Assembly: GCA_900318885.1 (NCBI GenBank)
Contig: ONMN01000002.1
Span: 1 to 64,000, forward strand
DNA from: an uncultured Prevotellaceae bacterium
Lineage (GTDB): Bacteria; Bacteroidota; Bacteroidia; Bacteroidales; Bacteroidaceae
DNA length: 64,000 nucleotides
Direction: 5' to 3'
The translations under genes and the position numbers were made by a program. The notes under the pieces were generated by a model. The model had not been told where the DNA came from, did not search any database, and saw only the letters and a list, made by a program, of their open reading frames with translations. Shown here piece after piece: positions 983 through 47,372 of the stretch; the stretch's first letter is position 1, and each line of letters opens with the position of its first letter.

Positions 983-3931
983 TTACCCGTTCAGTTTCTC
1001 TTTCAGATATTTTCCTGTGATACTTTCCTCGCAGGCGGCTATCTGTTCGGGCGTGCCGCAGGCCACTAGCTGACCTCCGCGATCGCCTCCGTCAGGACCA
1101 ATGTCGATGATGTGGTCGGCACATTTGATGATTTCCATATTGTGCTCGATGATGAGGATGCTGTGGCCGCGTTCTATCAGTGCGTCGAAGGCGTGCAACA
1201 GGCGCTGGATGTCGTGGAAGTGAAGACCCGTCGTGGGCTCGTCGAAGATGAAGAGGGTAGGCTCTTGTTTCTCCTGTCCGATGAAGTAGGCCAGCTTTAC
1301 ACGCTGGTTTTCACCACCGGAGAGCGTAGAGGAGTTCTGACCGAGCTTGATGTATCCGAGGCCGACTTCTTCGAGCGGCTTCAGGCGCGAGACGATAGAC
1401 TTACACCCGTCGAAGAATTCAATGGCCTCGCTGATGGTCATATTGAGCACGTCGTAGATATTCTTGTCCTTGTAGCGGACGTCGAGGATGTCATGCTTGA
1501 AGCGGTGACCGTGACAGGCTTCACACTCGAGGACGAGGTCGGCCATAAACTGCATCTCGACGGTGATGACACCCGCACCCTTACACTCGTCGCAACGTCC
1601 ACCGTCGGCATTGAATGAGAAATACTGCGGCGTGAAACCCATCTGCTTGGCCAGCGGCTGGTCGGCAAAGAGGTCGCGGATGGCGTCGTAGGCTTTGACG
1701 TAAGTGGCAGGGTTGGAACGGGTGGATTTGCCGATGGGATTCTGGTCGACGAACTCAATGTGTTTGATGCTCTCGTAGTCGCCCTCCAGACCGATGTATT
1801 CTCCTGGTGCGTCGCATACGTCACCCATTCGACGCTTGAGGGCAGGGTAGAGGATGCCTTTGACGAGCGACGATTTGCCCGATCCGGATACGCCCGTGAC
1901 AACGGTCATGATGTTCAGCGGGAAGTCGACGTCGATACCCTTCAGATTGTTCATGCGGGCGCCCTTGATGGTGATGCGCTGATTCCAGGGGCGACGGCTG
2001 GCGGGGACGGGGATTTCGTCGGTATGCGAGAGGTAGCGGAGGGTGTAGCTTTTCCCGACGGCCGAACCGTCGGGCACAGTAGCGGCTGAGGAATCCCCGA
2101 CGGGGGAACCGTCGGGCACAGTCAACGGACCGGCGTAGACGATTTCACCACCGAGGCGGCCGGCATCAGGGCCGACGTCGATGAGGTAGTCGGCAGCACG
2201 CATGATTTCCTCGTCGTGTTCGACGATGACGACGGTATTGCCGAGGTCGCGCAACTCCTTGAGTACCTTGATGAGTCGGTCGGTGTCGCGTGAGTGCAGT
2301 CCGATGCTGGGCTCGTCGAGGATGTAAAGCGAACCTACGAGCGAAGAGCCTAAGGACGTCGTCAGATTGATGCGCTGACTCTCGCCACCAGACAGCGAAT
2401 TCGACATGCGGTTGAGCGTCAGATAGCCCAGTCCGACGTCGAGCAGGAATTGCAGGCGCGAATTGATTTCCGTCAGCAAGCGACGGCCAATCTCCTGTTC
2501 CTGTGGCGTCAGTTCCAGCTGGTCGAACCACTGCTTCAGCCGTACGACAGGCAGTTGTACGAGGTCGGTAATGCTGCGACCACCGATCTTGACGTATTCT
2601 GCCTCGGGCTTCAGTCGTGTGCCGTGACATTTGTGACACGTCGTCTTTCCACGATAACGCGCCAGCATGACACGATACTGAATCTTATACTGATTCTCCT
2701 GCAGCATCTGGAAGAAATTGTCGATGGATACACGGTCGTACTTGTCGCGGGTCTTATCGCTGGGCAGTCCGTGCCAAAGCATATCCTTCTGTTGCTGCGT
2801 CAGGTTATAGTACGGTTCGAAGATGGGAAAATCGTCTTGGGCAGCACGACGGCAGAATTCTTCCTGCCACATCTTCATCTTATCGCCGTGCCAAGGCTGC
2901 ACACAACCGTCGTAGACCGACAGTGTGGTATTGGGAATGACGAGGTGTTCGTCGATGCCGATAATCTTGCCGAAACCCTGACACTCAGGGCAGGCACCAG
3001 CAGGCGAATTGAAGGAGAACATCTGGTCGTTGGGCTCCTCGAACGTCATGCCGTCAGCCTCGAAACGCTGGGAGAAGTCGTAGGTCAGACCAGAGGGTGA
3101 AACCATTAGGCGCAGTTCGCCGTGACCCTCGTAGAAGGCTGTCTCAGCAGAGTCGACGAGACGCGAGACGGAGTCTTTGGAGTTGTCGACGGAGAGGCGG
3201 TCGATGACGAGGTACATCCCGTCGGCCGAACCGACGGGCACACTACTGGCGGCCGAACCGACGGGCACACTACTGGCGGGAGAACCGCTGGGTACACTAA
3301 TAGCAGGGGAGGCGCCAGACACACTGGATGACGACGAGGCGGTGGCGGCGTGTTCCTCCAGCCAGTCGTCAATGCGGACGATGTTGCCGCTGACGGACAT
3401 GCGGGCGTAGCCATTCTGGACATACATTTGAAGCTGGCGTTCCAGCGTGCGACCCTCGACGGGAATGATGGGTGCCAGGATGATGAATTTCGTGCCAGGC
3501 TGGAACCGCTGCACCTGTCGGACGATATCCTCAGTGGAGTGTTTCTTCACCTCCTGTCCGCTAATGGGCGAGTAGGTCCGTCCGATGCGGGCATAGAGCA
3601 GGCGCAGATACTCGTAGATTTCCGTCGTTGTGCCAACGGTACTTCTTGGATTGCGCGAGATGACCTTTTGTTCGATGGCGATGGCGGGCGGTATGCCGCG
3701 AATGTAGTCGCATTCGGGTTTGTTCATACGGCCCAGAAACTGGCGTGCATATGCCGACAGGCTCTCCACATAACGTCTCTGGCCCTCGGCATACAGTGTG
3801 TCGAAGGCCAAAGATGATTTGCCGGAGCCACTGACTCCGGCAATCACCACCAATTTGTTGCGGGGAATGGTGACGTCAATATTCTTCAGGTTATTGACTC
3901 TCGCCCCCTTTATTTCAATTGAATCGCTCAA
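983..3931 (-). CDS. uvrA: Excinuclease ABC subunit A (UvrA)
   Basis: The DNA-damage sensor of nucleotide excision repair, a cytosolic twin-ABC ATPase that loads UvrB. Walker A sequences GVSGSGKSS occur near residues 32-40 and again near 665. Both signatures (LSGGESQR, LSGGENQR) and both Walker B boxes (LDEPSIGL, FDEPTTGL) are present, as are CxxC zinc-binding pairs. At 982 aa it is longer than the usual ~940. A Ser/Pro/Val-rich insert (about 205-238) is built from a 27-bp tandem repeat, and a second insert (about 603-630) carries two palindromes. The start is TTG placed directly after the uxaB TAA, with no better ATG, so translation is probably coupled to uxaB. Confidence 0.97.
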   Translation of the reverse strand: MSDSIEIKGARVNNLKNIDVTIPRNKLVVIAGVSGSGKSSLAFDTLYAEGQRRYVESLSAYARQFLGRMNKPECDYIRGIPPAIAIEQKVISRNPRSTVGTTTEIYEYLRLLYARIGRTYSPISGQEVKKHSTEDIVRQVQRFQPGTKFIILAPIIPVEGRTLERQLQMYVQNGYARMSVSGNIVRIDDWLEEHAATASSSSSVSGASPAISVPSGSPASSVPVGSAASSVPVGSADGMYLVIDRLSVDNSKDSVSRLVDSAETAFYEGHGELRLMVSPSGLTYDFSQRFEADGMTFEEPNDQMFSFNSPAGACPECQGFGKIIGIDEHLVIPNTTLSVYDGCVQPWHGDKMKMWQEEFCRRAAQDDFPIFEPYYNLTQQQKDMLWHGLPSDKTRDKYDRVSIDNFFQMLQENQYKIQYRVMLARYRGKTTCHKCHGTRLKPEAEYVKIGGRSITDLVQLPVVRLKQWFDQLELTPQEQEIGRRLLTEINSRLQFLLDVGLGYLTLNRMSNSLSGGESQRINLTTSLGSSLVGSLYILDEPSIGLHSRDTDRLIKVLKELRDLGNTVVIVEHDEEIMRAADYLIDVGPDAGRLGGEIVYAGPLTVPDGSPVGDSSAATVPDGSAVGKSYTLRYLSHTDEIPVPASRRPWNQRITIKGARMNNLKGIDVDFPLNIMTVVTGVSGSGKSSLVKGILYPALKRRMGDVCDAPGEYIGLEGDYESIKHIEFVDQNPIGKSTRSNPATYVKAYDAIRDLFADQPLAKQMGFTPQYFSFNADGGRCDECKGAGVITVEMQFMADLVLECEACHGHRFKHDILDVRYKDKNIYDVLNMTISEAIEFFDGCKSIVSRLKPLEEVGLGYIKLGQNSSTLSGGENQRVKLAYFIGQEKQEPTLFIFDEPTTGLHFHDIQRLLHAFDALIERGHSILIIEHNMEIIKCADHIIDIGPDGGDRGGQLVACGTPEQIAACEESITGKYLKEKLNG
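2054..2116. repeat. Two in-frame palindromes inside uvrA
   Basis: Unit 1: CCCGACGG (2054-2061), loop CCGAA, CCGTCGGG (2067-2074). Unit 2: CCCGACGG (2096-2103), loop GGGAA, CCGTCGGG (2109-2116). Both are perfect 8-bp stems with 5-nt loops. They encode a Val-Pro-Asp-Gly-Ser segment in a variable part of UvrA between conserved blocks. Confidence 0.85.
3218..3303. repeat. 27-bp tandem repeat with palindrome inside uvrA
   Basis: A 27-bp unit occurs twice exactly (3223-3249, 3250-3276) and a third time degenerately (3277-3303). The first copy sits in a perfect palindrome, CCCGTCGG-CCGAA-CCGACGGG (3218-3238). The unit encodes a 9-residue Pro-Val-Gly-Ser-Ala-Ala-Ser-Ser-Val repeat, and 27 bp keeps the reading frame. 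Confidence 0.88.
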
Positions 3932-5527: not shown

Positions 5528-6871
5528 TTACTGATTCATCAGGTAGGCCTTGAAGTCGGCGAAGTCCTTGGACAGTTCCACGCTTTGCTTCTCGCCTTCC
5601 ATGAATGCACGCAGACGGGCGGGTATCTCGATGTCGATGCCCAGAATGTCGTCCACCTTCTCCTTGAACTTAGCAGGATGGGCCGTCTCGCAGAATACGC
5701 CAACCTCGCCTGGCTTCAAGTTCTCTTGTAGTGCACGGAATCCGCAAGCGCCATGAGGATCAAGTATATAGCCCGTTTCGCTATAGCATTGCCGCATGGT
5801 TTCCTTAATCTGTTCATCGCTGTATGTTGCACCGCTAATGAGGTTGGTGATGCGATGATGTGTGGCTTCGGGAGTCAACGCATTGTTTTTAGAATAGAGG
5901 TTCAGAATACGTGCGAAGTTCGAGGGGTCGCCGACATCCATCGCGTTGGCTAATGTCTGTACTGAAGCTTTTGGCTCGTACTTGCCAGTCTGCAGATAGT
6001 TGTAGAAGACGTCGTTGGCATTGTTGGCGGCGATGAAGCGCTTGATGGGCAGTCCCATCTCGTGGCCGAACAGTGCCGAGCAGATGTTACCAAAGTTACC
6101 GCTGGGCACGCACATCACGAGCTCGTCGGCCAGACCAAGTGCTTTCATACGCGCATACGCATTAAAATAATAGAACGCCTGCGGGAGGAAACGTGCGACG
6201 TTGATGGAGTTTGCTGACGTCAGCTTCATGTGCTTGTTCAGTTCCTCGTCCATGAATGCCGACTTCACCAGTGCCTGGCAGTCGTCGAATACACCGTCGA
6301 CCTCGATGGCGGTGATGTTCTTGCCGAGCGTCGTGAATTGGCACTCCTGAATGGGGCTTACCTTGCCCTTGGGATATAAAACGTAAACATGGATGCCCTC
6401 AACACCGAGGAAACCATTAGCTACAGCACTTCCCGTGTCGCCGCTTGTGGCCACGAGGACGTTTACGGTCCCGTTAGTCGCGGTTTCCCCGCGACTACCC
6501 ATGCGCAAGAAATACCCCAGCAGGCGGGCCATGAAGCGGGCACCGACGTCCTTGAATGCCAGCGTCGGTCCGTGGAACAACTCCAGCGCATAGATGTTTT
6601 CCGTGACTTTTACCACAGGACAATCGAACGACAGCGTGTCGTAGACGATATCCTGCAAGGCGTCGCCGTCCACATCGTCGCCAAAGAAGTTTTGGGCTAC
6701 GTTGTAGGCGATATCCTGGAACTTCATGCCGGGCATGTCGTTGACGAATGCCTTTGGCAGCGTATAAATCTCTTCGGGCATATACAGACCGCGGTCCTCT
6801 GCCAATCCTTTCACTACTGCCTTCTGCAAATCTGCAATCGGCGCATTTCCGTTTGTGCTGTAGTATTTCAT
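5528..6871 (-). CDS. thrC: Threonine synthase
   Basis: A PLP enzyme converting O-phosphohomoserine to L-threonine. The PLP lysine lies in LAFKDVGARF (Lys107), and the phosphate-binding SGDTGSA loop is at about 143-149. At 447 aa it is a full-length fold type II protein. It carries an in-frame insert at about residues 124-137, just before the conserved VLVATSGDTG block, encoded by the palindrome at 6475-6497. Last gene of the thrA-apgM-thrC operon; its start overlaps the apgM stop (ATGA). Confidence 0.96.
   Translation of the reverse strand: MKYYSTNGNAPIADLQKAVVKGLAEDRGLYMPEEIYTLPKAFVNDMPGMKFQDIAYNVAQNFFGDDVDGDALQDIVYDTLSFDCPVVKVTENIYALELFHGPTLAFKDVGARFMARLLGYFLRMGSRGETATNGTVNVLVATSGDTGSAVANGFLGVEGIHVYVLYPKGKVSPIQECQFTTLGKNITAIEVDGVFDDCQALVKSAFMDEELNKHMKLTSANSINVARFLPQAFYYFNAYARMKALGLADELVMCVPSGNFGNICSALFGHEMGLPIKRFIAANNANDVFYNYLQTGKYEPKASVQTLANAMDVGDPSNFARILNLYSKNNALTPEATHHRITNLISGATYSDEQIKETMRQCYSETGYILDPHGACGFRALQENLKPGEVGVFCETAHPAKFKEKVDDILGIDIEIPARLRAFMEGEKQSVELSKDFADFKAYLMNQ
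6475..6497. repeat. In-frame palindrome in thrC
   Basis: TAGTCGCGG (6475-6483), loop TTTCC, CCGCGACTA (6489-6497): a perfect 9-bp stem with a 5-nt loop. It encodes the SRGET part of an insert absent from typical ThrC. The geometry matches the palindromes in uvrA, recQ and cobQ. Confidence 0.85.
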
Positions 6872-8130
6872 AAGCTCATAAATGTTTTCATAAATTCATC
6901 GAGTTTTAGCAGACCATAGGCCCCGCTGACGCAAGAAACCTCGTCGTACTGCTGCACGGCGTCTGGCTTGATGCCGCGGTGCCAGATAAGGAACGGCACG
7001 GGCTGTCCGACGTGGATGCGCTGTTCGACAGGCGTGAGGTGGTCAGGCAGTACGGCGATGCAGACGTCTTTGTCCTTTACCTTATTATATATAGGTGCGA
7101 TGAGTCGCTGGTCCAGATACTCGATGGTCTTCAGTTTCAGTTCCAAGTCGCCATCGTGACCTGCCTCGTCGCTGGCTTCTACATGAACGAAGACGAAGTC
7201 GTCGTGCTCCAATGCGTCAATGGCGGCTTGTGCCTTGCCTTCATAGTTGGTGTCGGCCAGTCCAGTGGCACCAGGCACCTTGACAATGCGCAGACCAGCG
7301 TACTTACCAATGCCCTGAATCAGATCGACAGCACTAATAACCGTACCGCTCTTGATTTGCGGGTACTGTTGCATGAGCGTCTCCATCGACGGACGATAGC
7401 CACCGCTCCAAGGCCAGATGCTGTTGGCCTGACGCTCACCCTTCTTAGCACGTTCGATGTTAAAGGGATGTTGAGATAACAGCTCTTGCGATTTCAGAAT
7501 CATCTCGTTGATGAGGTCGGCAGTTTGTTGGGGAGACAGACGGCGGGTGTCAGCGACGGAATCGCTGACCACACTATCAGGTTTTACCAACAATGGGCGC
7601 CAAGGCTCGTTGGGGTGATCGTGGGGTGGGGCACAGACGATGTGTTTGTTGCCACCTTTGATGACCAACAGATGGCGGTATTGTATGCCTGTGATGAACT
7701 TCACACGCTCGCAGCCCTCACGTTCGTTGATGGGCTTAGCGAGGTTTTCGTTCATATAGTCGATGAGCACACGGGCGTCGTCTGTCTCCAGATTACCGCC
7801 GTTGTGGGTGATAATCTTGCCGTCCTCCAACGTGATGATGTTGCAGCGAATTGCGAAGTCGTCATCGGCCATCTCGTAGCCAATAGAAGCCGCCTCTAAT
7901 GGTCCGCGGCCTTCGTAAACCTTGTTCAAATCATAACCCAAGATAGCGGTGTTGGCCACCTCGGAACCAGGAGGGAAACCTTCTGGAACAGTCACCAAGC
8001 GACCACAGCGACCTTCACGCGCCAGCTGGTCCATCATGGGCTTATGGGCATATTGCAGCAGGGTCTTCCCATCGAGTCGCTCGACGGGAAGATCTGCCAT
8101 GCCATCACCTAAAATGATAATATGTTTCAT
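6868..8130 (-). CDS. apgM: ApgM-family phosphoglycerate mutase-like enzyme, proposed homoserine kinase
   Basis: An alkaline-phosphatase-superfamily metalloenzyme resembling cofactor-independent phosphoglycerate mutase of the archaeal type. It has the N-terminal metal site GDGMAD, a PPGSEVAN active-site serine region and C-terminal metal ligands in EASDEAGHDG and LPDHLTP. It lies between aspartokinase/homoserine dehydrogenase and threonine synthase, where thrB is expected. This family has been proposed to act as a homoserine kinase. The role is inferred from context; mutase activity cannot be excluded from sequence. Confidence 0.88.
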   Translation of the reverse strand: MKHIIILGDGMADLPVERLDGKTLLQYAHKPMMDQLAREGRCGRLVTVPEGFPPGSEVANTAILGYDLNKVYEGRGPLEAASIGYEMADDDFAIRCNIITLEDGKIITHNGGNLETDDARVLIDYMNENLAKPINEREGCERVKFITGIQYRHLLVIKGGNKHIVCAPPHDHPNEPWRPLLVKPDSVVSDSVADTRRLSPQQTADLINEMILKSQELLSQHPFNIERAKKGERQANSIWPWSGGYRPSMETLMQQYPQIKSGTVISAVDLIQGIGKYAGLRIVKVPGATGLADTNYEGKAQAAIDALEHDDFVFVHVEASDEAGHDGDLELKLKTIEYLDQRLIAPIYNKVKDKDVCIAVLPDHLTPVEQRIHVGQPVPFLIWHRGIKPDAVQQYDEVSCVSGAYGLLKLDEFMKTFMSL

Positions 8131-8208: not shown

Positions 8209-10689
8209 TTAAATATTAGCGATTGACATGATGTTGGCGAAGACACCTGCGGCCGTAACGGCAGCACCAGCGCCGTAGCCTTGAATCAGCATTGGATATT
8301 CCTTATAGCGCTCGGTGGTCAACAGCACGATGTTGTTCGAGCCCTCAAGTCCGTAGAACGGATGTCCGTAGGGAACCTCCTTTAATGCCACGCTGGTCTT
8401 GAAGTTCGTGGGGTCGTTCTCGTCAGCCTCCATCGTAGCCACGAAGCGCCAACGCTTGTTCTCGGCCTCCAATACCTTGCGGCGAGCCTCGAAGTCGGCA
8501 TCAAGTTCGGGCAGACGCTTCCAGAAGTCGTCAATGCTTCCCTCGAAGTAGCTGTCGGGCACAAAGAGATGCTTCTCGACGTCGTCCTGTTCTACCTTAT
8601 AACCAGCCTCACGGGTCAGGATGACCAACTTACGAATCACGTCCGTTCCGCTGAGGTCGATACGTGGGTCAGGCTCTGAGTAGCGCTGTTCCTTAGCACG
8701 ACGAACGGTCTCAGAGAAGGGCACGTCGGCAGCAATCTCGTTGAAGATGAAGTTCAGTGTACCTGAGAGGATAGCCTCAATCTTCAGAATCTTATCACCA
8801 GAGTTGCAGAGGTCGTTGATGGTACCGATAATAGGTAGACCAGCACCAACGTTGGTTTCATAACGGAACCACACGCCACGGTCGCGGGCTGTCTGGCGCA
8901 GTTTCACATAGCTGTCGTAGTCGCTTGAAGCAGCAATCTTGTTGGCTGCAACGACGGATATATTGTGCTCTAAGAAAGTCTGATATAATGTGGCAATCTG
9001 TTTGCTGGCGGTACAGTCGACGAAGACAGAATTGAAGATGTTCATCTTGATGATTTCCTCGCGCATGTGGTCGGTGTCGGCCTTGAAACCTGCACGCAGA
9101 ATCTTCTCATAGTTGTCGAGGTCGATGCCGTCACGGTCGAGCACGAAGTTGTCGACATCTGAAATGCCGACCACATTGAGCTTCAGGCGACGCGACTGCA
9201 TGAGGAACTGCTGCTGTGTACGAATCTGTTCGAGTAACATGCCACCCACCGTACCGATACCGCAGATGAAGATGTTGAGCACCTTGTATTCTGACAGGAA
9301 GAACGAGTCGTGCAGCACGTTGAGCGACTTGCGCAGGAACTTGCCATCGACAACAAACGAGATGTTGGTCTCCGAAGCACCCTGAGCACAAGCAATCACG
9401 CTGATACCTGAGCGACCCAATGTTCCAAATAGCTTACCTGCGATACCTGGTGTCTGCTTCATGTTCTCACCCACGATAGCGATGGTAGCGAGTCCGCTCT
9501 CCACCTGCATGGGGAACATAGCGCCCGTCTCAATCTCCTTGGCGAACTCAGCGTTCAGTACTTCTGCTGCAGCCTCGGCATCTTCGTCACGAACACCAAT
9601 AGAGGTAGAGTTCTCTGAAGAAGCCTGTGATACCATAAAGACAGAGATGCCCTTATTGGCAAGCGTCGTGAAGATACGGCGGTTGACACCAATGACTCCC
9701 ACCATCGACAGACCCGTGACGGTAATCAGCGAAGTGCCCTTGATACTTGAGATACCCTTGATGGGCTTCTGGTCGTTGTCAATTGTGGCCTTGATGAGTG
9801 TTCCCGGGTGTTCAGGATTGAATGTGTTCTTGACCTTAATAGGTATATTCTTGACACAAACGGGATAGATCGTCGGGGGGTAGATAACCTTGGCACCGAA
9901 GTTACACAGCTCCATCGCTTCTACGTACGAGAGCTCGTTGATGGTGTATGCACTCTTGATAACTTTCGGGTCGGCAGTCATGAAACCGTCGACGTCGGTC
10001 CATATTTCCAGAATTTCAGCGTCGAGAGCTGCAGCGATAATGGCTGCTGTATAGTCACTACCACCACGTCCGAGGTTTGTCGTCTCGTGGCTATCGCGGT
10101 CGCGGGCAATGAAGCCTGGCACTACGGCGACTGTCTTGCTGGCATTGGTATTGTTGTTCTGGAAGGTAGCAAAGGCTTCCTTCACCAGTTTGTTGGTCAG
10201 CTCGGTGTCGAGTACATGCTTGCCTTCCTTGGTCTCCGTGCGGATGAAGTCGCGGCTGTTCATGCGCATACCATTCTTAATCATGGCAGCAACAATATGA
10301 GAACTCAGACGCTCGCCATACGAGATGATGGTGTCTTGCGTCTTCTCGCTCAAGTCGTGAATCAAGAATACACCATAGTAGATGCTCCGCAATTGGTCGA
10401 AGAGCTGATCTACGTTATTGAATAAGTCGATGCGCTTTTTGTCGTCCTGAATAATGGCGTCAATCATCTGGTGGTGGCGCGTCACCATCGCTTCAAACTC
10501 CTCGCGATAGTGGCTGTCGCCATTCTTTGCCAATTCTGACGTTGCAATCAGTTTGTCGGTGATGCCGTTCAGGGCGCTAACTACTACTACGACAGGCCCC
10601 CGTCCGGCTTCTGCCTCCACAATCTCTTTTAAGCTCAAAATGCTTTTCACGGAACCTACGGACGTTCCGCCGAATTTCATTACTTTCAT
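8209..10689 (-). CDS. thrA: Bifunctional aspartokinase / homoserine dehydrogenase
   Basis: Catalyses the first and third steps from aspartate to homoserine. The N-terminal kinase starts KFGGTSVGS. Central ACT-type regulatory domains follow at about 310-460. The C-terminal NADP-binding dehydrogenase begins at IFICGIGTVGGM (about 465). Length is normal for ThrA. The start chosen is the ATG giving MKVMKFGG; an ATG four codons upstream (10701) is possible. First gene of thrA-apgM-thrC. The 5' leader can form a CCCC/GGGG hairpin that may allow attenuation. Confidence 0.96.
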   Translation of the reverse strand: MKVMKFGGTSVGSVKSILSLKEIVEAEAGRGPVVVVVSALNGITDKLIATSELAKNGDSHYREEFEAMVTRHHQMIDAIIQDDKKRIDLFNNVDQLFDQLRSIYYGVFLIHDLSEKTQDTIISYGERLSSHIVAAMIKNGMRMNSRDFIRTETKEGKHVLDTELTNKLVKEAFATFQNNNTNASKTVAVVPGFIARDRDSHETTNLGRGGSDYTAAIIAAALDAEILEIWTDVDGFMTADPKVIKSAYTINELSYVEAMELCNFGAKVIYPPTIYPVCVKNIPIKVKNTFNPEHPGTLIKATIDNDQKPIKGISSIKGTSLITVTGLSMVGVIGVNRRIFTTLANKGISVFMVSQASSENSTSIGVRDEDAEAAAEVLNAEFAKEIETGAMFPMQVESGLATIAIVGENMKQTPGIAGKLFGTLGRSGISVIACAQGASETNISFVVDGKFLRKSLNVLHDSFFLSEYKVLNIFICGIGTVGGMLLEQIRTQQQFLMQSRRLKLNVVGISDVDNFVLDRDGIDLDNYEKILRAGFKADTDHMREEIIKMNIFNSVFVDCTASKQIATLYQTFLEHNISVVAANKIAASSDYDSYVKLRQTARDRGVWFRYETNVGAGLPIIGTINDLCNSGDKILKIEAILSGTLNFIFNEIAADVPFSETVRRAKEQRYSEPDPRIDLSGTDVIRKLVILTREAGYKVEQDDVEKHLFVPDSYFEGSIDDFWKRLPELDADFEARRKVLEAENKRWRFVATMEADENDPTNFKTSVALKEVPYGHPFYGLEGSNNIVLLTTERYKEYPMLIQGYGAGAAVTAAGVFANIMSIANI

Positions 10690-22148: not shown

Positions 22149-23933
22149 ATGATATTGGTATTCGGCGGAACGACGGAGGGTCGCAGGGCAGCAGAGGTGC
22201 TGGAAGAAGTAGGTAGTAGCTATTATTACAGCACGAAGACGGGCGAGCAGGAGCTGACACTACATTACGGTGTGCGCACGGATGGAGCGATGGACGGTGA
22301 GGCTATGCGGCAGTTTATCCGTGAGCACGCGATACGGCTGATGGTGGATGCAGCCCATCCGTTTGCTGCGACGTTGCATCAGACGATAGGCGAGGTGGCA
22401 TCTGACATGCGGATTCCGGTCATCCGATATGAAAGAATCTATCCGCCAAGAGACCCTGATATCACGTGGATTGACGACTACCGGCAGGTGCCGACGGATA
22501 TCCATTCGTTGTTAGCAACGACTGGCGTGCAGAGCATCAGCAAGTTGAAATGGCTGGAGGCGGAAGGAGTAAAAGTAATATATAGGATACTGAATCGGGA
22601 GAGTAGCATCCGGTTGGCGCACGAGCAAGGCGCGACGGACGAACAGCTGTGCTTCTTTGAGGAGGAGAATATGCCCGAAGCCGATGCAATTCTTTTAAAA
22701 GAAAGCGGTCTCAGCGGCGGATTTGTAGAAAAGGTGGAAGAAGCACGCGAAAAAGGTATGCAGATTATCGCATTGAAGCGTCCGCAATGGTTAATGGTTA
22801 ATGGTCAATGGTCAATGGTCAATGGACCTTACGGACTGCGGCGGGCGGTGGAGAAACTGTTGCCGGAGTTCTTCCCTTTACATAGCGGTCTGACGACGGG
22901 GACTTGTGCAACAGCGGCGGCAATTGCTGCGACGAGGCGGATGCTGTATGGCGAGACGCCCGCGGAAGTGGCGGTGTTGTTGCCGAATGGCGAAACGATT
23001 CCTGTGACTGTGGGCTATGGCGACGGGTATGCGTATTGCGTAAAAGAGGCGGGCGACGATCCGGATGTGACGAACGGCATCGAGGTGAGGGCGAAGGTTG
23101 AGAAAGCTACTCAGTTTGAGATATGCGGAGGCAATGGAGTGGGGCGATTTACGCTGCTTGGGTTCGATTATCCGGTAGGCGAGGCCGCCATCAATAAAGG
23201 ACCGCGCGAGATGATTCGGAAGAATATTCTAGCGGTTATGAATCACGGGGACAGTCCCCATGATTCACTTCGAATTACCATCAGTGTGCCGAATGGCGAG
23301 GAGATTGCCAAGCGGACGTTTAATCCGCGGCTCGGCATTGAGGGCGGTATCTCGATTATTGGTGTGAGTGGTATTGTGAAGCCGTTCTCGGAGGAGGCGT
23401 TTATCGACAGCATCCGCAAATGTATGGAGGTGGCGAAGGCCAGCGGTTCTTTGACCGATGGTCAAAGTGTGGCGTTGCAATCGGAACGCGTGGTAATCAA
23501 TAGCGGTGGCAAGAGCGAGCGGTTTGTGAAGACGATGTATCCGGACTTGCCTCAGCAGGCATTTGTGGAGTACGGCAATTATATTGGTGATGCATTGAAA
23601 ATCGCCAACGAATTGGGTATCAAGAATATAACGCTTGGTGTGATGTTGGGTAAGGCCGTCAAATTAGCTGCTGGAAATCTGGACACGCATAGCCGTAAGA
23701 CGACGATGGACAAGGCGTTTGTTCAGCAGATGTTGCAGGAGGCAGGCATCAGCATCGACATCAGCGACATGACACTGGCACGGGAGCTATGGGAACGAAT
23801 CCCAGAGTGCGGGCGAATTCCGTTCGCCCATGTCGTCATTCACCATTGCTACGAGCATTGCGCCCCGCTGTTACCCAACGGCGAACTCACGATATTATTG
23901 ATTGACGACAATGGAAAGATATATGAAGTATAA
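22149..23933 (+). CDS. cbiD: Precorrin-6A reductase / cobalt-precorrin-5B C1-methyltransferase fusion (CobK/CbiJ-CbiD)
   Basis: Residues 1-240 are the CobK/CbiJ reductase (GGTTEGR, DAAHPFAATLH). From about 245 the CbiD methylase follows (HSGLTTGTCATAAAIAA). The 594-aa fusion combines two steps of the anaerobic pathway. Two odd insertions are in frame: a 7-bp tandem array encoding WLMVNGQWSMVNG at about 213-226, just before the last helix of CobK, and a palindrome encoding NHGDSPHDS at about 363-373 in CbiD. The ATG at 22149 is nearly at the transcript start. Confidence 0.94.
   Translation: MILVFGGTTEGRRAAEVLEEVGSSYYYSTKTGEQELTLHYGVRTDGAMDGEAMRQFIREHAIRLMVDAAHPFAATLHQTIGEVASDMRIPVIRYERIYPPRDPDITWIDDYRQVPTDIHSLLATTGVQSISKLKWLEAEGVKVIYRILNRESSIRLAHEQGATDEQLCFFEEENMPEADAILLKESGLSGGFVEKVEEAREKGMQIIALKRPQWLMVNGQWSMVNGPYGLRRAVEKLLPEFFPLHSGLTTGTCATAAAIAATRRMLYGETPAEVAVLLPNGETIPVTVGYGDGYAYCVKEAGDDPDVTNGIEVRAKVEKATQFEICGGNGVGRFTLLGFDYPVGEAAINKGPREMIRKNILAVMNHGDSPHDSLRITISVPNGEEIAKRTFNPRLGIEGGISIIGVSGIVKPFSEEAFIDSIRKCMEVAKASGSLTDGQSVALQSERVVINSGGKSERFVKTMYPDLPQQAFVEYGNYIGDALKIANELGIKNITLGVMLGKAVKLAAGNLDTHSRKTTMDKAFVQQMLQEAGISIDISDMTLARELWERIPECGRIPFAHVVIHHCYEHCAPLLPNGELTILLIDDNGKIYEV
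22785..22825 (+). repeat. 7-bp tandem array inside cobK-cbiD
   Basis: About 5.5 copies of AATGGTT/AATGGTC in tandem. The unit is not a multiple of 3, so gain or loss of one copy would shift the frame of the fused gene. Confidence 0.85.
23239..23267. repeat. In-frame palindrome in cbiD
   Basis: TGAATCA (23239-23245) pairs with TGATTCA (23261-23267), and GGGGAC with GTCCCC inside it, with one C/A mismatch. It encodes an extra NHGDSPHDS segment. The loop geometry differs from the 5-nt-loop palindromes in other genes. Confidence 0.7.
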
Positions 23934-24630
23934 AGACTTGTTTATTGATTTCGACGACACGCTGTATGATACCTACGGGAATGCCGTCATTGCCTTGCGG
24001 GAAACGTTTGAGGCATTTCATTTGGAGCGTTACTTTGCCGACCCGAAAGTGTTCTACGATGCCTATTGGGCTGCGAATATCGACCTGTGGACACGCTACT
24101 CGAAAGGAGAGATAGACCGCCCGTATCTCATCGTCGAACGTTTCCGTCGCCCTTTGTCCGCGGGTGACGGTTTGCCCGTCACCGAAGACCTTTGTCTGGA
24201 GATGAGCGACAAGTTTCTCGATTTTTGCTCGTCGAAGCCGGGCGTCATTGATGGTGCTCATGAGCTGATGGATTACCTCCGCAAAAAAGGTTATCGCATG
24301 CACATGACGAGCAATGGTTTTCATGAAGTGCAGTATAAGAAGTTGGCGGCCTGTGGACTGCGCGACTATTTCGATACCATTATCCTGAGTGAGGATGCGG
24401 GCGCCAACAAACCCTCGCCGATTTTCTTCGATTTTGCGATGGCGATGACGGGTGCCGAACGAGAGGCCACGCTGATGATTGGCGATAACCTGAATACCGA
24501 CGTCCTCGGAGCCTTGAATGCCGGCATCGACGCCATGCTCGTCAATCGCTGGAACATCGAAAAAACAGATATCCCGCAAACCGTGACGTTCGTTGTTAAC
24601 AGCCTGCGGGACATCATGAAAATCCTTTAA
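23923..24630 (+). CDS. HAD-superfamily hydrolase, YjjG type
   Basis: A cytosolic phosphatase. HAD motifs are in order: FIDFDDT (nucleophile Asp near residue 9), TSNG, KPSP and IGDNLNTDVLGA. An alpha-helical cap of about 80 residues follows motif I. It resembles YjjG nucleotidases. The ATG at 23923 overlaps the end of cobK-cbiD by 11 nt, so it is in the cobalamin operon. No alpha-ribazole phosphatase (CobC) is present in the window, so that role is possible but unproven. Confidence 0.85.
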   Translation: MKYKDLFIDFDDTLYDTYGNAVIALRETFEAFHLERYFADPKVFYDAYWAANIDLWTRYSKGEIDRPYLIVERFRRPLSAGDGLPVTEDLCLEMSDKFLDFCSSKPGVIDGAHELMDYLRKKGYRMHMTSNGFHEVQYKKLAACGLRDYFDTIILSEDAGANKPSPIFFDFAMAMTGAEREATLMIGDNLNTDVLGALNAGIDAMLVNRWNIEKTDIPQTVTFVVNSLRDIMKIL

Positions 24631-34755: not shown

Positions 34756-35865
34756 ATGAAGAAGACCGTCGTTATTCTATATATTGTGGTGGTTGCCGTC
34801 ATGGCAGCCGCCACAATCGTTGAGAACAGTCAAGGCACGGAGTTTGTCGCAGAAAACATCTATGGTGCATGGTGGTTTTCTGCTTTGTGGGCTTTGCTGG
34901 CGGCGGCAGGCATCTTTTGGTTTGTCAAGAGCAAGGTTCGCCGCCCGTCGATCGTGGTGCTTCATCTGTCGTTCTTGGTCATCCTTGCCGGCGCCCTGTT
35001 GACGCATCTGACCGCCGTGCAGGGTGTTGTTCCTTTGCGTAAGGGAATACCTACAAATGAGTATCTCACGCGCGACATGCGCCTTCACCATTTGCCGTTC
35101 ACCATCAGTCTTGATGACTTCGAAATCAAATATTACGACGACAGCAACGATCCGTCCGACTATATCTCCCGCGTCACGATTGACGGTGAGCCCGTTACCA
35201 TCTCGATGAACCATATTGCCAGTTGTAGCGGTGTCCGTCTTTATCAGATGGATTTTGACCCCGACCTGCAGGGTAGCATCCTCGCCATGAACAGCGACCC
35301 GTGGGGTATTCCCGTTACCTATTGCGGCTATGCGCTGCTCTTCGTGGCGTTGCTATGGATACTCATCGACCCCAAGGGCCAGTTCCGCAATCAGTTATCC
35401 GAACTGCGAGGGCGTCGCTACCAGCTGTTGTCCGTTCTCCTCCTGTTCGTTTACTCCTTCTTGCTCTACCACTTCCTGGGCAAGTATTCTTCGGCCAATC
35501 ATCCGTTGCCGGTGCTCAACTCCTGGCTGTTGCCCGTCCACGTGTCTACTATCATCATGGCCTATCTGTTGCTGTTCGTTGCCATCTTTGTGCGCGCCAT
35601 GCTTTATCCGGCACTCGCGTTCCTTGGTTATGGCATCTTCATTGGCGCCATTTGGGCCAACGTGTCGTGGGGCAACTACTGGTCGTGGGATCCGAAAGAG
35701 ACGTGGGCGCTCATCACCTTCATGGTCTATGCTGTTCCTGCCCATAAATCCTTCCACTTGTCAAACAGGTCTTTCCGCCTCTACATGGCGTTGGCATTCC
35801 TCACCATTCTCATGACCTATTTCGGTGTGAACTACCTGTTGGGAGGCATGCATTCATACGCTTAG
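34756..35865 (+). CDS. ccsA: Compact cytochrome c biogenesis protein (ResB-like/CcsA fusion)
   Basis: An integral membrane haem-handling protein of cytochrome c maturation system II. The N-terminal ResB-like part has two to three membrane segments and an extracytoplasmic loop (about 95-165). The C-terminal CcsA-like part has the tryptophan-rich haem motif WGNYWSWDPKETW (about 305-317). At 369 aa it is about half of typical CcsBA fusions. It follows the di-haem gene by 29 bp, suggesting a dedicated maturase. Its 3' end overlaps the convergent cobQ by 12 bp. Confidence 0.88.
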   Translation: MKKTVVILYIVVVAVMAAATIVENSQGTEFVAENIYGAWWFSALWALLAAAGIFWFVKSKVRRPSIVVLHLSFLVILAGALLTHLTAVQGVVPLRKGIPTNEYLTRDMRLHHLPFTISLDDFEIKYYDDSNDPSDYISRVTIDGEPVTISMNHIASCSGVRLYQMDFDPDLQGSILAMNSDPWGIPVTYCGYALLFVALLWILIDPKGQFRNQLSELRGRRYQLLSVLLLFVYSFLLYHFLGKYSSANHPLPVLNSWLLPVHVSTIIMAYLLLFVAIFVRAMLYPALAFLGYGIFIGAIWANVSWGNYWSWDPKETWALITFMVYAVPAHKSFHLSNRSFRLYMALAFLTILMTYFGVNYLLGGMHSYA

Positions 35866-37308
35866 AATATCGTAGATACGATTGATATCGACATGCTGGC
35901 GGACGTGAGCCGCCAGTTTGTTGTATTGCTCATTCTTAAAGGTTTGCAGGTCTGACTGATTGTTCAGCGGGGAACGCTGAACTGCGAACTTACTTAGCAA
36001 GTGCTCAATGACGGGTGCATTATCGAGGAAACCATGAATGTATGTGCCGATGCAATGATCTGTCTGCAGGATGGACTCATCGGTATCGCTGACACCCTGA
36101 TGGATTTCATACCCTTGACATTCCTGGCCTTCAAACGCAAACGTCACCTGACGGGTGGTTTTATCCGTAGTCATCGTGGTGTTGATGGGCAATAGTCCAA
36201 GACCAGGCAGACTCGTGATGCTACCCTCGATGCCATCAGGGTCGTCGACCGTCTGACCTAACATCTGATAACCTCCACAGATACCTACCACCATCTTCCC
36301 GTCACGATGAGCACGCTGAATGGCCTGTGCACAACCGTTACGACGCAACTCCATCAAGTCGTCGAGCGTAGCCTTTGTGCCAGGCAGAATAATGATGTCG
36401 GCCTGTTGGATATCAGCGACGTTGTTGGTATAGAAAAGATTGACGCGGGGGTCGCGCTCTAATGTATCGAAATCGGTATAATTGCTGATATGTCGTAAGA
36501 GGATGACTGCCACGTTCACTTTGCCCTCAGCCAATTGACGGCGCTTCTGTTCCAATGCCACGCTATCCTCTTCATCAATATAGATGTCTTTGTAATAGGG
36601 TATCACACCCAAGACCGGTACGCCACAAATATCTTCGAGCATCTTGCGACCCTCGTCGAAGAGGCGCATATCGCCACGAAACTTGTTGATGATGATACCT
36701 TTGATGAGTTTCCTGTCTTCGGGTGTCTGCAACATGATGCTGCCATAAACCGAAGCAAAGACGCCACCGCGGTCAATATCGCCCACAAGGATGACGTCAG
36801 CCTTCGCGTGACGGGCCATCGACATGTTCACCAAATCGCGGTCCTTTAGGTTTATCTCTGCAATACTGCCTGCACCCTCCATCACAATGGGGTTATAGCG
36901 TCTTGCCAAACGGTCGAAGGCGTCGCAAACTTCCTGCCTATAATCTATTCTCTCACCTCTTACCTCTGACCTCTCACCTCCTTTTCTCCAATAGTCGTAG
37001 GCATCCTTATTGCCGATAGGTTTGCCGTTCAGAACCACCTGAGAAGTATGGTCACTCTGAGGCTTCAGGAGCAATGGATTCATATCCGTATGACAAGGAA
37101 TGCCTGCCGCTTCCGCCTGTACAGCCTGCGCACGGCCAATCTCGAAACCCTCGGGTGTGGCATATGAGTTCAGCGCCATGTTCTGTGCCTTAAAAGGTGC
37201 GGGCTGGTAGCCGTCCTGCTTGAAGATGCGACAAAACGCTGCTGCCACGATGCTCTTGCCGACATCGCTGCCTGTTCCGGCAAACATGATGGGATGGAGA
37301 TGCTTCAT
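35854..37308 (-). CDS. cobQ: Adenosylcobyric acid synthase
   Basis: Amidates four side chains of adenosylcobyrinate a,c-diamide using glutamine. N-terminal P-loop synthetase (GTGSDVGKSIVAAAFCR) and C-terminal type 1 glutamine amidotransferase (MVVGICGGYQMLG with catalytic Cys, and YIHGFLDN His). Two in-frame repeat inserts: GGERSEVRGER near residue 112, from a 7-bp array, and VQRSPLN near 443, from the palindrome at 35962-35982. The start overlaps the cobB C-part stop (ATGA). Confidence 0.95.
   Translation of the reverse strand: MKHLHPIMFAGTGSDVGKSIVAAAFCRIFKQDGYQPAPFKAQNMALNSYATPEGFEIGRAQAVQAEAAGIPCHTDMNPLLLKPQSDHTSQVVLNGKPIGNKDAYDYWRKGGERSEVRGERIDYRQEVCDAFDRLARRYNPIVMEGAGSIAEINLKDRDLVNMSMARHAKADVILVGDIDRGGVFASVYGSIMLQTPEDRKLIKGIIINKFRGDMRLFDEGRKMLEDICGVPVLGVIPYYKDIYIDEEDSVALEQKRRQLAEGKVNVAVILLRHISNYTDFDTLERDPRVNLFYTNNVADIQQADIIILPGTKATLDDLMELRRNGCAQAIQRAHRDGKMVVGICGGYQMLGQTVDDPDGIEGSITSLPGLGLLPINTTMTTDKTTRQVTFAFEGQECQGYEIHQGVSDTDESILQTDHCIGTYIHGFLDNAPVIEHLLSKFAVQRSPLNNQSDLQTFKNEQYNKLAAHVRQHVDINRIYDILSV
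35962..35982. repeat. In-frame palindrome in cobQ
   Basis: GTTCAGCG (35962-35969), loop GGGAA, CGCTGAAC (35975-35982): a perfect 8-bp stem. The loop is identical to palindromes in uvrA and recQ although the stem sequence differs. Confidence 0.8.
36948..36981 (+). repeat. 7-bp tandem array in cobQ
   Basis: Units TCTCACC, TCTTACC, TCTGACC, TCTCACC in tandem. It encodes GGERSEVRGER on the minus strand. Nearly the same array is found 460 bp away in cobB. Confidence 0.85.
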
Positions 37309-40611: not shown

Positions 40612-40624
40612 CGCACTTAGTGCG
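40612..40624. promoter_or_regulatory. Palindrome at the transcription start of btuB-like gene
   Basis: CGCACTTAGTGCG is a perfect 6-bp inverted repeat around one base. It lies directly after the -7 box. The same arms (CGCACT/AGTGCG) follow the -7 box of the orphan TonB-like gene at 41476-41490. It could be a shared operator. Confidence 0.5.
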
Positions 40625-40656
40625 CAAAGGTACGAAAAAAAAACGAGCCCACCAAA
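40625..40656 (-). promoter_or_regulatory. Promoter of btuB-cobB-cobQ
   Basis: On the minus strand TTTG (40653-40656), 20 nt including nine T, TACCTTTG (40625-40632). The TTTG lies in the loop of a hairpin formed by GGGCTCA and TGGGCTC (40645-40666). Confidence 0.75.
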
Positions 40657-40690
40657 CGATGAGCCCGAATTTTCTGTTGCGCTTTCCGGC

Positions 40691-41075
40691 GAACGCCCTG
40701 CAAAAGACAAAAAGATAAAAAGATAAATCTCTCGCAATACCTTTATTTAGGGCAATTCCGAGATACAACAAAATCCACGCCATGCTATTATGACGTGCAT
40801 TTTTGTTGGTCCACAAATCTCCCGACCGGTGGAGGATATTGCCGGAAAAAACATAATTTTCCTTAATACTTTTTTACCCCTGTTAACACTTCGCGAGGCG
40901 AATTTATCTTTTTATCTTTTTGTCTTTTCCCGGGTGTTTGCACGGGGGCCAATATATGTATAAGGGGGATTACTTAAATATATTTTTAAATACCTATTTA
41001 TATTTACATACATTATTATAAAAGGGCTTTCTCTGGTGAACGCCCTGCAAAAGACAAAAAGATAAAAAGATAAAT
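40691..41075. repeat. 38-bp direct repeats with an inverted copy between them
   Basis: 40691-40728 and 41038-41075 are identical (GAACGCCCTGCAAAAGAC followed by AAAAAGAT units). 40902-40928 carries 27 bp of the same sequence inverted. The 3' part is itself a short AAAAGAT tandem. The element may be mobile or a recombination product. Confidence 0.8.
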
Positions 41076-41176
41076 TTCAAAAAAGCCGTTAAAATGTTCG
41101 GCATTGGCACACATTCGGTATTTTTTTGAAGTGTCAAAATGTCCCGAATTTTCATTGTCGTTCCAAAAATTCTTCA

Positions 41177-41265
41177 TACTTTTGCACCGTCAAGCGCTGA
41201 CAAGGGTTGCTCCCGCTCTCCTCAAGGGTTGCTCCAAGGATGTTCCGAGTTTATGACGGCTTTTA
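41177..41265 (+). promoter_or_regulatory. Promoter and structured leader of unknown role
   Basis: TACTTTTG (41177-41184) with ATTG (41154-41157) 19 nt upstream. The transcript would begin with CCGTCA, which can pair with TGACGG about 65 nt later. Inside are two CAAGGGTTGCTCC direct repeats. No full gene follows, only a 51-codon frame (41328-41483) of unknown value, so this may be an orphan leader or a small RNA. Confidence 0.4.
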
Positions 41266-41443
41266 GGGGTTGGGCGCGGTAAAACCGAAAGTTTTTTATT
41301 CGTTTAACAATTTAAATTTTTACAACTATGCTTTGGTACTTTACTCACTTATTCGTAATTTTCTCCAGGAGAAGTTTTTGGACGAGCCAAGCGAACAAGT
41401 TCGAGTCCTTTCGCTCGAAAGAACAAAGAAAAACTCGTTTTCC

Positions 41444-41475
41444 TTTGGTTCTTTGCTCACTTTTTCGTACCTTTG
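41444..41475 (+). promoter_or_regulatory. Promoter of the orphan TonB-like gene
   Basis: TTTG (41444-41447), 20 nt, TACCTTTG (41468-41475). The sequence from CACTTTTTCGTACC to the inverted repeat CGCACT-gat-AGTGCG closely resembles the btuB promoter. Confidence 0.7.
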
Positions 41476-41571
41476 CGCACTGATAGTGCGAGAGACTGCT
41501 CACACTTGGCCATTGATACAAGTATCATGGCTCTCGCTTAACCGCAGCCTTCGCAGGCAAATTTCAATAGT

Positions 41572-45417: not shown

Positions 45418-47372
45418 ACAATCGTGATAAATCCGTCGTCCTGACGGATTTTTTCGTTTTCAATCAGGGTTTTGAGGGCTGCATTGAGCGCTTCCGCAGG
45501 CAACGGCAGGCGGTAGAGCTCGGTGATGTGGTGGCGCTGGCGGTCGGACAACAGGGTGAGAATCTGCTGGCTGGCATCGTGCTGCTCTGCAGGAGTCATC
45601 GGCTGACCGTGTTCCTGGAGACAGACGTCGCACTGGCCGCAATCCTTTGTGGTCTCCTCGCCAAAGTATTCGAGCAGCATGCGACTGCGACAACGGTCTG
45701 TCGTCTGTGCGTAGTTCGTCATGGCCTCGATGCGCTTGCGGTATTGTTCCTGACGGTCCTCGTAGATAGCGCGTGGCAGTTGGATGTGTTCCTTGTCCTC
45801 GCGACGCTGCAAGTAGCGGATGTAGGGCACCTGTTTGCGGGGAATAAAGCTGATGAGATGGCGCAGCGACAGGGCTTTCAGGATGTCGTAAGCCACGGGT
45901 TGGGGGATTCCGGCCTGCTGGGCAATGACACTCTCGTCGACGTAGCCGTAGTCGGCAAAGAGTCCGCCATAGTTGCGTAGAAGGGCAACGATGACGCGTT
46001 CCTCGACGGGCGTCACCTGATCGAGGCGGTAGAGTTCGTCGCGACTGACCAGAAAGCGCACGCGGGCTTCGTGGTCGGCATCTTGGTCGTAGTCGATATA
46101 GCCTGCACGCATGAGGATCTGCAGGGCGGAATGGACGCGGATGGGGAAATGGTGGAAACGCTGGCAGAACTCCTCGATATTGAACTCGCGGTTGACACCA
46201 TAGCCGTCGCCGGTGGCAATCTGGTAGTAGTAGGCCAGATGTTCGTACACCTCTTTAATATATTCGCGCGGGGGGAAGGTGTCGTCGACGCGCTTCGACA
46301 GTTTGCCGTTGTCGCTGCCATTGAAGAGCAGGATGGCACGGGCGGGCTTGCCGTCGCGTCCGGCACGACCCGCCTCCTGGAAATAGGCCTCGATGGAATC
46401 GGGGCTGTCGTAATGGATGACCAGACGGACATCGGGCTTATCGATGCCCATACCGAAGGCGTTGGTGGCTACCATGACACGCACGCGGTCGTGTTGCCAG
46501 TCGCGCTGACGACGGTCCTTGTCGGCATGGTCGAGCCCGGCATGATAAAAGGTGGCCGAGAGACCGGCGTCGGAGAGGTGTTCAGCAATCTCGCGAGCAT
46601 GGCGACGGCTACGCACATAAACGATGGCCGAGCCTGTTGTCTCGCTGAGCATACGCACCAGTTCGCCGTATTTGTCGGGGGCGTAGTGAACGAGATAGGC
46701 AAGGTTCTTGCGTTCGAAGGACATGCGAAACACGTTGAAACCGTGTTTCCCCGCGTGGCATCCGGTTTCCCCGGATGCGCTTGTGGATTCGGGGGAACCG
46801 AATCCCACGGACAGCTTCGCGCAGATGTCGTCGACGACCTGTGGTGTGGCGGTAGCCGTCAGTGCCAGCACGGGTACGTCGGGATGGATGTTGCGGATGT
46901 TGGCGATTTCGAGATAGGACGGTCGGAAATCGTAGCCCCATTGCGAGATGCAGTGTGCCTCGTCGACGGTGATGAAACTCACCTGCATGTGGCGTAGCTT
47001 GGTCTGAAAGAGACTGCTGCCCAGACGTTCGGGTGAGACATAAAGTATCTTGGTATTTCCCAAGATGCAGTTCTCCAGCGTTCGCATGACGTCATCGTGC
47101 TGCATGCCGCTATAGATAGCTGCCGCCTGTATATTGAGCTGGCGCAGGTGGTGCACCTGGTCCTTCATGAGTGCGATGAGGGGCGTGATGACGATGCAGA
47201 CACCCTCCTTGGCCATTGCCGGCACTTGAAAGGTGATGGATTTTCCACCACCCGTAGGCATCAGTCCCAGCGTGTCATGGCCGGAACCGATGGACTCGAT
47301 GATGTCACGCTGGATGCCGCGAAAATCGTCGTAGCCCCAGTAGCGCTTGAGGATGTCCTGATACTTACTCAT
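45414..47372 (-). CDS. recQ: ATP-dependent DNA helicase RecQ
   Basis: A 3'-5' helicase for recombination and fork repair. Helicase motifs include LMPTGGGKSITFQVPA, VDEAHC and FQEAGRAGRDG (motif VI). The RQC zinc site is in CGQCDVC near residue 600. A C-terminal HRDC domain is not apparent. An insert of about 25 residues (about 190-213), encoded by palindromes at 46758-46805, lies where RecQ normally connects helicase subdomains. The start overlaps recJ by 8 bp, so they are one operon. Confidence 0.95.
   Translation of the reverse strand: MSKYQDILKRYWGYDDFRGIQRDIIESIGSGHDTLGLMPTGGGKSITFQVPAMAKEGVCIVITPLIALMKDQVHHLRQLNIQAAAIYSGMQHDDVMRTLENCILGNTKILYVSPERLGSSLFQTKLRHMQVSFITVDEAHCISQWGYDFRPSYLEIANIRNIHPDVPVLALTATATPQVVDDICAKLSVGFGSPESTSASGETGCHAGKHGFNVFRMSFERKNLAYLVHYAPDKYGELVRMLSETTGSAIVYVRSRRHAREIAEHLSDAGLSATFYHAGLDHADKDRRQRDWQHDRVRVMVATNAFGMGIDKPDVRLVIHYDSPDSIEAYFQEAGRAGRDGKPARAILLFNGSDNGKLSKRVDDTFPPREYIKEVYEHLAYYYQIATGDGYGVNREFNIEEFCQRFHHFPIRVHSALQILMRAGYIDYDQDADHEARVRFLVSRDELYRLDQVTPVEERVIVALLRNYGGLFADYGYVDESVIAQQAGIPQPVAYDILKALSLRHLISFIPRKQVPYIRYLQRREDKEHIQLPRAIYEDRQEQYRKRIEAMTNYAQTTDRCRSRMLLEYFGEETTKDCGQCDVCLQEHGQPMTPAEQHDASQQILTLLSDRQRHHITELYRLPLPAEALNAALKTLIENEKIRQDDGFITIV
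46758..46805. repeat. Two in-frame palindromes inside recQ
   Basis: GCATCCGG-TTTCC-CCGGATGC (46758-46778) and GGATTCGG-GGGAA-CCGAATCC (46785-46805). Both are perfect 8-bp stems with 5-nt loops. A third degenerate unit precedes them (about 46741-46757). Confidence 0.85.

Follow-up and report, generated by a model that had tools for sequence, protein, structure and literature searches.

Rickettsia palindromic elements (RPEs) fall into families, and the members of a family have a sequence in common. They are palindromic units lying in frame in many unrelated genes, as cited in the accessible portion of PMC3733652, and the same portion describes, for the REPs of the GTAG and CGTC superfamilies, an intragenic subset that is also found in uvrA and other repair genes. 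These REPs are hairpins of 20-40 bp with a tag at the foot and alternative complementary residues in the stem, which form inverted dimers and are thought to be tolerable in linkers; Prevotella is not named in that portion of the paper, and Bacteroidetes is named once. REPINs, which are extragenic and tied to a transposase gene (RAYT), are hairpin units in inverted doublets for which compensatory changes have been reported (PMC3116915, accessible part). The Y1 (HUH) transposase genes of subclass 2.6 in Bacteroidetes are flanked by atypical secondary structures that have copies elsewhere in the host genome (PMC6006769, accessible part). Finally, coding sequences of nematomorph mitochondria contain long, perfect inverted repeats that vary in length; these have identical arms and are gained and lost between species (PMC6649704, accessible part).

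The DNA considered here, referred to as the window, is a stretch of 64,000 nucleotides from a 3.34 Mb draft genome (G000). Among named organisms, rumen Bacteroidales and Prevotella have the RecQ proteins nearest to its own; the host genus is probably Prevotella in the sense of GTDB. An initial annotation had pointed out small palindromes in its coding genes and had likened them to RPEs, a likeness that stands as an analogy in that both are in-frame palindromes of unrelated genes. We find that these palindromes belong to a hairpin family that is maintained for its structure, with letters varying between copies. Our preferred reading, to which we assign a probability of roughly 45%, is that one genus has a REP-like hairpin family in which shape, tag and loop are what is recognised, most likely in mRNA.

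Hairpins of the window and their common design

All seven palindromes initially reported are present, with perfect stems of 8-9 bp and 5-nt loops. Two of them form an inverted pair with outward tags and a gap of 6 nt in recQ. Hairpin 1 (46785..46805, minus strand; GGATTCGG-TTCCC-CCGAATCC) is sense and in codon phase 0, with a GTG tag at 46806-46808 on the minus strand, and hairpin 2 (46758..46778, plus strand; GCATCCGG-TTTCC-CCGGATGC), with its GTG tag at 46755-46757, is antisense to recQ. Beside them lies an older hairpin (46727..46749, minus strand; GAAACACG..CGTGTTTC) with a loop of 7 nt, whose right arm consists of the ancestral V-F codons and which has relatives in two other genomes (G007 and G235). 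In other species the recQ linker is filled by in-frame repeats of the RGERSEV type (GAGAGGTGAGAGG), the ANSQEPKA type (GCTAATAGCCAA) or the TSTTS type (ACTAGT).

The uvrA gene has three members on the minus strand: one at 2054..2074 (CCCGACGG-TTCGG-CCGTCGGG; tag ACTGTG; phase 0), with an identical site and stem in genome G097; a second copy at 2096..2116 (CCCGACGG-TTCCC-CCGTCGGG; tag ACTGTG), which is a gain of 42 nt relative to the sister genome G411; and one at 3218..3238 (CCCGTCGG-TTCGG-CCGACGGG; tag AGTGTG), in a linker with further repeats of the left arm and loop. The thrC hairpin (6475..6497, plus strand; TAGTCGCGG-TTTCC-CCGCGACTA) is antisense, with a degenerate tag (GTT). By eye, its linker is a site of turnover, at which other species have different hairpins with other loops (7-5-7 in G273, 8-3-8 in G022). 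The cobQ hairpin (35962..35982, minus strand; GTTCAGCG-TTCCC-CGCTGAAC) lacks the full tag and is an atypical member; the length of the site is unchanged relative to relatives, and the hairpin is no net insertion. The same gene (35854-37308) carries a GGERSEVRGERID insert, another in-frame linker filler.

Three members had been missed. One lies at 7549..7569 on the minus strand (GTCAGCGA-TTCCG-TCGCTGAC; tag AGTGTG), in an apgM-type gene (6868-8130) identified by Pfam as a phosphoglycerate mutase; another, with one stem mismatch, lies at 9151..9171 on the minus strand (GTCGGCAT-TTCAG-ATGTCGAC; tag AATGTG), in an aspartokinase/homoserine dehydrogenase gene. The third (24163..24183, plus strand; GGTGACGG-TTTGC-CCGTCACC; tag GCG) is sense and in phase 0 in a HAD-hydrolase gene (23902-24630, plus strand), the strand of this host being taken from Pfam over the longest-ORF call. 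The surrounding stretch of 111 bp looks identical in G273, despite a genome divergence of about 7%. Beyond these seven host genes, trpA, release factor 3 and Sua5/YrdC are further hosts in the genome. The seven original members are real, with cobQ and thrC lacking the full 5' tag, and their position in coding genes, within variable linkers of the proteins, is upheld. Outside the genes, window positions 40617-41569 are intergenic and built of dispersed repeats, pieces of which (about 50-120 bp) match tens of places in the sister genomes.

The members have a fixed design: a tag A[CG]TGTG, an 8-bp stem closing in CG(G/A), a 5-nt loop TTYNN, the complementary 8-bp arm and usually a final A. The loops GGGAA and TTTCC were correctly recognised as shared; CCGAA, thought to be merely related, is TTCGG on the opposite strand, and all three are one class, TTYNN. 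We aligned 28 copies on their loops (23 perfect and 5 with one mismatch, picked by loop and stem, so that TT in 28/28 loops is by selection). The 5' foot of these copies is mostly G[TC]G, with G at -2 in 27, T or C at -1 in all 28 and G at 0 in 24; stem position 6 is C in 20 and position 7 is G in 24. Ahead of TG[TC]G stand A in 49 and then G or C in 57 of 67 perfect copies, which come from the loci read, were selected for TG[TC]G and include some mutual orthologues. The letters of the outer five stem pairs are nearly free, yet pairing is retained: 94 perfect copies have 51 distinct outer-five sequences, and stems carry no mismatch in 95 copies, one in 29 and two in 10. Thus, the original statement that stems differ while loop and geometry are common holds for the family, which has no stem consensus and shares the tag, the CG closing pairs and the loop only. 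Among nine close pairs, three have outward tags (6-12 nt apart), two have inward tags and four are in tandem. Rfam 15 covariance models run on five element-bearing loci gave one match, off the element and far below the gathering score (E 0.66). A family in G008 (CGGTTCCCCCG) was considered as a relative and rejected as an unrelated dispersed intergenic repeat; the loci L229-L240 of that genome hold a dispersed repeat family, CCCCCTTCGGTTCCCCCGTTTCGCGGGGGAC, different from the hairpins.

Abundance, distribution and upkeep

The window contains 11 hairpins with a stem of at least 8 bp and a 5-nt loop, whereas an order-3 Markov model predicts 1.5. Hairpins with TTY../..RAA loops number 8; when codons are shuffled within 41 ORFs (55,467 bases, 200 shuffles), the mean is 0.03 and the highest count 1, so that the shuffled control that the initial annotation had proposed as a check fails to reproduce them. 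In a 301-kb sample of the host genome, TTY/RAA loops carry 23, 5, 2, 17 and 2 stems of 5, 6, 7, 8 and 9 bp, with one more of 11 bp, against 12.3, 3.0, 1.3, 0.0 and 0.0 at 5-9 bp in the Markov control. Because the counts spike at 8 bp, where the control gives 0.0, we regard the stem length as sharply set at 8 bp; the same 301 kb have no such spike for other 5-nt loops or other loop lengths. A 630-kb sample of the host genome has 21, 2 and 1 stems at 8, 9 and 11 bp, and as its second half yields just 4 of these 24, the density is uneven.

We searched 398 genomes of the genus, nearly all the sequence compared in this work being draft, with a pattern that fixes the tag, CGR, TTY, YCG and the final A, leaves the outer stem letters unconstrained and does not require pairing. 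At least one match was found in 162 genomes and 8-29 matches each in 29, whereas a reversed-pattern control gave 0-2 per genome. Pairing was counted in 163 of the matches listed, 13 of them from G000. Among these, the outer five positions pair with 0-1 mismatch in 113/121 matches (82 perfectly) from genomes with at least four matches, and in 21/42 from genomes with one to three. In a control of 294 other genomes of the order, which includes 3 of the same family, 61 have one to three matches and 0/79 matches pair with fewer than two mismatches. Loop-class hairpins are rare, though present, in named and other relatives: the recQ surroundings of 80 named genomes (1.41 Mb) have six such stems of 8, three of 9 and two of 12 bp, and 785 kb of other relatives have five of 8 bp, three of them in G007. 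In viral contigs two loop-specific patterns match 22 and 43 stretches, with 13/66 matches perfectly paired, and one contig (L438:3152-4967) has four identical ACTGTG/AGTGTG-CCTTGCGG-TTTTG-CCGCAAGG copies on a single strand within 1.8 kb.

The phosphoglycerate mutase site (7549) bears on how the hairpins are kept. A hairpin is present at the orthologous position in 15 of the 24 orthologues seen, mostly from genomes chosen as element-rich, two of the hairpins being imperfect. In the alignment of these 15 species 99.0% of cells are paired, against 85.8% after shuffling; five of the eight pairs have altered on both sides, and compensatory changes number 12 cells against 3.0 in shuffles, none of 500 of which reaches 12. 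Among 11 species with the residues VS..AD, which were picked for their shared stem, the four arm codons are identical in 220/220 same-residue comparisons. Outside the arms, such comparisons across the gene show a matching codon in 10,855/19,445 cases, and the codon is invariant in just 19/279 invariant columns. The arm codons are therefore frozen, a statement conditional on these residues. Four species have a leader hairpin right before the phosphoglycerate mutase gene; its stem, CTGGACGG, is common to all four while the loop differs in each, and two of these species also have the internal hairpin.

A further account would treat the hairpins as chance, as a codon-usage artefact or as tolerated low-complexity linker without function. 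The position of copies in variable linkers that other repeat types fill in other species suits it, but the codon shuffles, the covariation and frozen arm codons, and the lack of paired matches outside the genus (0/79) refute it as a full explanation and make it very improbable.

Gain, placement and candidate readings

Three sister genomes (G411, G309 and G273), at 92-93% DNA identity to the host, record gains of hairpins. The initial annotation had regarded the palindromes as recent in-frame inserts, and recQ hairpin 2 bears this out: it is an exact 24-nt gain, comprising tag and hairpin, over G411, the close relative without the insert, at a locus 96% identical, with no visible target duplication. 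Its stem has no second place, at one mismatch or fewer, in G000, G411, G309 or G273, assemblies that are 86-94% complete and may lack the donor. From these comparisons we judge that recQ hairpin 2 was gained recently and in frame, and that its stem is unique. Several other members are older, such as the one present in 15/24 orthologues with its compensatory changes, and cobQ has no net insertion. Hairpin 1 of recQ is common to G411 and absent in G309 and G273. A gene that by eye looks like a cobalamin-pathway gene has two inverted copies in G273 and G411, a gain of 63 nt relative to G000 and 69 nt relative to G309. In G273 the phosphoglycerate mutase gene holds another copy in inverted orientation (+48 nt), its stem almost identical to that of the first, beside which (L331:17676-17750) stands a third, partial arm (CAAACCGCTGAC), as if copied repeatedly. 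Copying of arms from host sequence seems to apply to the older recQ hairpin; it was not seen for the cobalamin-type pair, neither arm being found in the empty sites of G000 and G309.

The origin first put forward for these palindromes was template switching or self-copying rather than one mobile sequence. Template switching at quasi-palindromes would have replication errors copy arm onto arm, making and correcting palindromes without any element. The unique stem of the newborn recQ copy, the match of the older recQ arm to ancestral host codons and the perfection of most stems speak for it. Undirected switching nevertheless falls short, because an 8-bp spike, one loop and one tag, common to unrelated genes and species, are not expected from it. 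Further, the order-wide sample has no paired matches, and the stem of the phosphoglycerate mutase site does not drift at the synonymous rate but is conserved. We thus have one family, defined by its tag, 8-bp stem, CG closing pairs and loop motif, and consider template switching alone improbable, while it may help to keep arms identical.

The placement of copies was studied in 60 loci from eight genomes, taken from the first of the matches listed, which gave 66 strict copies (at most one outer mismatch); host ORFs were read stop to stop, and strands were then checked with Pfam. In the work as a whole, some sites were hand-picked. In this set 54 copies are intragenic and 12 stand ahead of genes. 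The intragenic copies are in phase 0 in 52 cases (48 sense, 4 antisense), and the remaining two, in phase 2, are in one DUF2851 gene of two species. The TTY strand is the mRNA sense strand in 62/66 copies, leaving four antisense. Of the 50 sense in-gene copies, 46 have a gene strand backed by Pfam and four have one assigned by ORF length; by Pfam the copies at L485 and L487 are sense and that at L296 is antisense. All 12 pre-gene copies are sense to the downstream gene, with an ATG 8-20 nt past the stem in nine; of the other three, the first is followed by a GTG after 14 nt, the second forms the outer member of a tandem, with its ATG at 42, and the third sits further upstream. The copies at L465 and L502 (2063) precede a start codon, though the ORF places them in-gene. 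In a glycoside hydrolase family 2 gene (G277 L482:1996-4101) a copy encodes, by eye, the apparent end of a signal peptide (MKKIITTLVALFIVVSGFAAD).

Phase 0 can be explained by tolerance of the peptide, as the other sense frames force Cys, Arg and Phe. Sense phase 0 has stops in 0/66 copies, partly since this is the frame from which the copies were drawn. In antisense phase 2, just 2/66 would have a stop, with peptides rich in T, S, A, P and E, yet this phase is unused; hence, peptide tolerance alone fails to explain the sense bias. In our judgement this bias, together with the position ahead of start codons, favours the mRNA level. Under the preferred mRNA reading, a candidate RNA-binding protein or nuclease would touch the UUYNG loop and the GUG tag, the latter single-stranded, and the 8-bp helix would serve solely as a ruler, so that stem letters would drift while pairing is selected. 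Within genes, mainly those copies that encode a harmless peptide (V-x-x-[GD]-[SFL]-..) would survive, which would result in phase 0. Against the mRNA reading, stem mismatches on the TTY strand are G-U (G-T) in 17 cases and A-C in 12, without the clear preference that RNA pairing might predict, and the few antisense copies retain tag and loop. RbpB of Bacteroides was considered as the partner and is not an obvious one, as it prefers single-stranded regions of small RNAs (PMC11697453, accessible part). A bolder form of the mRNA reading is a genus-wide hairpin code, in which a global RNA-binding protein or nuclease would read tag, 8-bp helix and loop in dozens of targets per genome, in frame in housekeeping genes and in leaders, spread by repeated small gains where a copy can get its own newly made self-complementary stem; we think this rather unlikely.

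The main competitor to the mRNA reading is a REP-like mobile DNA, in which a single-strand-specific endonuclease (of the HUH/Y1 type or other) would cut at the tag and insert copies, recognition being structural, stems drifting and genes filtering by frame. We hold it to be a tentative possibility. It accommodates the tag at the 5' foot of the hairpin, the inverted pairs with outward tags (3/9 close pairs), as in REP/BIME, the clean gain of 24 nt in recQ, the identical-stem copies of phage contigs, the patchy distribution over genomes and the structures around the subclass 2.6 Y1 genes of Bacteroidetes (PMC6006769, accessible part). The transposase itself points the other way. The Y1 family (PF01797) is found in 17/29 element-rich and 13/28 element-free genomes, a test weakened by the lesser completeness of the rich assemblies, and no tagged member lies beside 30 Y1 loci (about 1.5 kb per side); the sole hairpin there is an untagged AT-rich 8-5-8 hairpin near a Y1 gene of G000 (L383). 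On these grounds we rejected a Y1/RAYT transposase as the driver. Moreover, the 62:4 sense bias would have to come from transcription-coupled insertion or some other cause of strand preference, the copies are mostly intragenic unlike REPs, stems vary within one genome and the tag is neither GTAG nor CGTC.

These are short insertions in conserved proteins that are apparently kept for nucleic-acid shape, rather than for their letters or peptide, and they provide a candidate target set for an RNA- or DNA-binding factor in a genus whose bacteria abound in gut and rumen. In uvrA, recQ, thrC and others, such linkers confront protein annotators as insertions that lack an explanation, and the sister genomes, with their gains and losses, let the birth and upkeep of hairpins be tested.

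Comparison with described elements

No paper listed in our searches of an open-access library had described elements of this kind from Prevotella or Bacteroidales before, subscription papers and preprints being outside the search. Of the systems considered, PARCELs do not fit, being tandem protein repeats of 25 residues (PMC2996958, accessible part). The coding palindromes of nematomorph mitochondria resemble the hairpins in their identical arms and in their gain and loss, but vary in length, and a tag or loop motif is not described for them in the accessible part of PMC6649704. RPEs, like the present family, enter many unrelated genes in frame; here, the outer stem sequence is not common to the copies and the unit is about 24 nt. 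The Y1 subclass 2.6 hairpins also have copies in Bacteroidetes genomes, but flank the transposase gene, beside which none of our tagged hairpins was seen; this comparison is by description in the accessible part of PMC6006769, and the sequences may overlap. REPINs share the inverted doublets and compensatory changes, whereas their extragenic location and tie to a transposase gene do not apply here (PMC3116915, accessible part). The REPs differ in that their terminal tag is GTAG or CGTC, in contrast to A[CG]TGTG, and in being mainly extragenic, in contrast to 54/66 strict copies within genes, mostly in phase 0. Further, the stems here are almost wholly variable within a genome at a fixed 8 bp, around a 5-nt TTYNN loop, and no RAYT association was found among 29 rich and 28 poor genomes, the rich ones being less complete. 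As tag, stem consensus, location and transposase association all fail, we do not file the family as REP; nevertheless, with its tagged foot, alternative complementary stem residues, inverted pairs and place in the linkers of genes such as uvrA, its closest known kind is the intragenic subset of the REPs.
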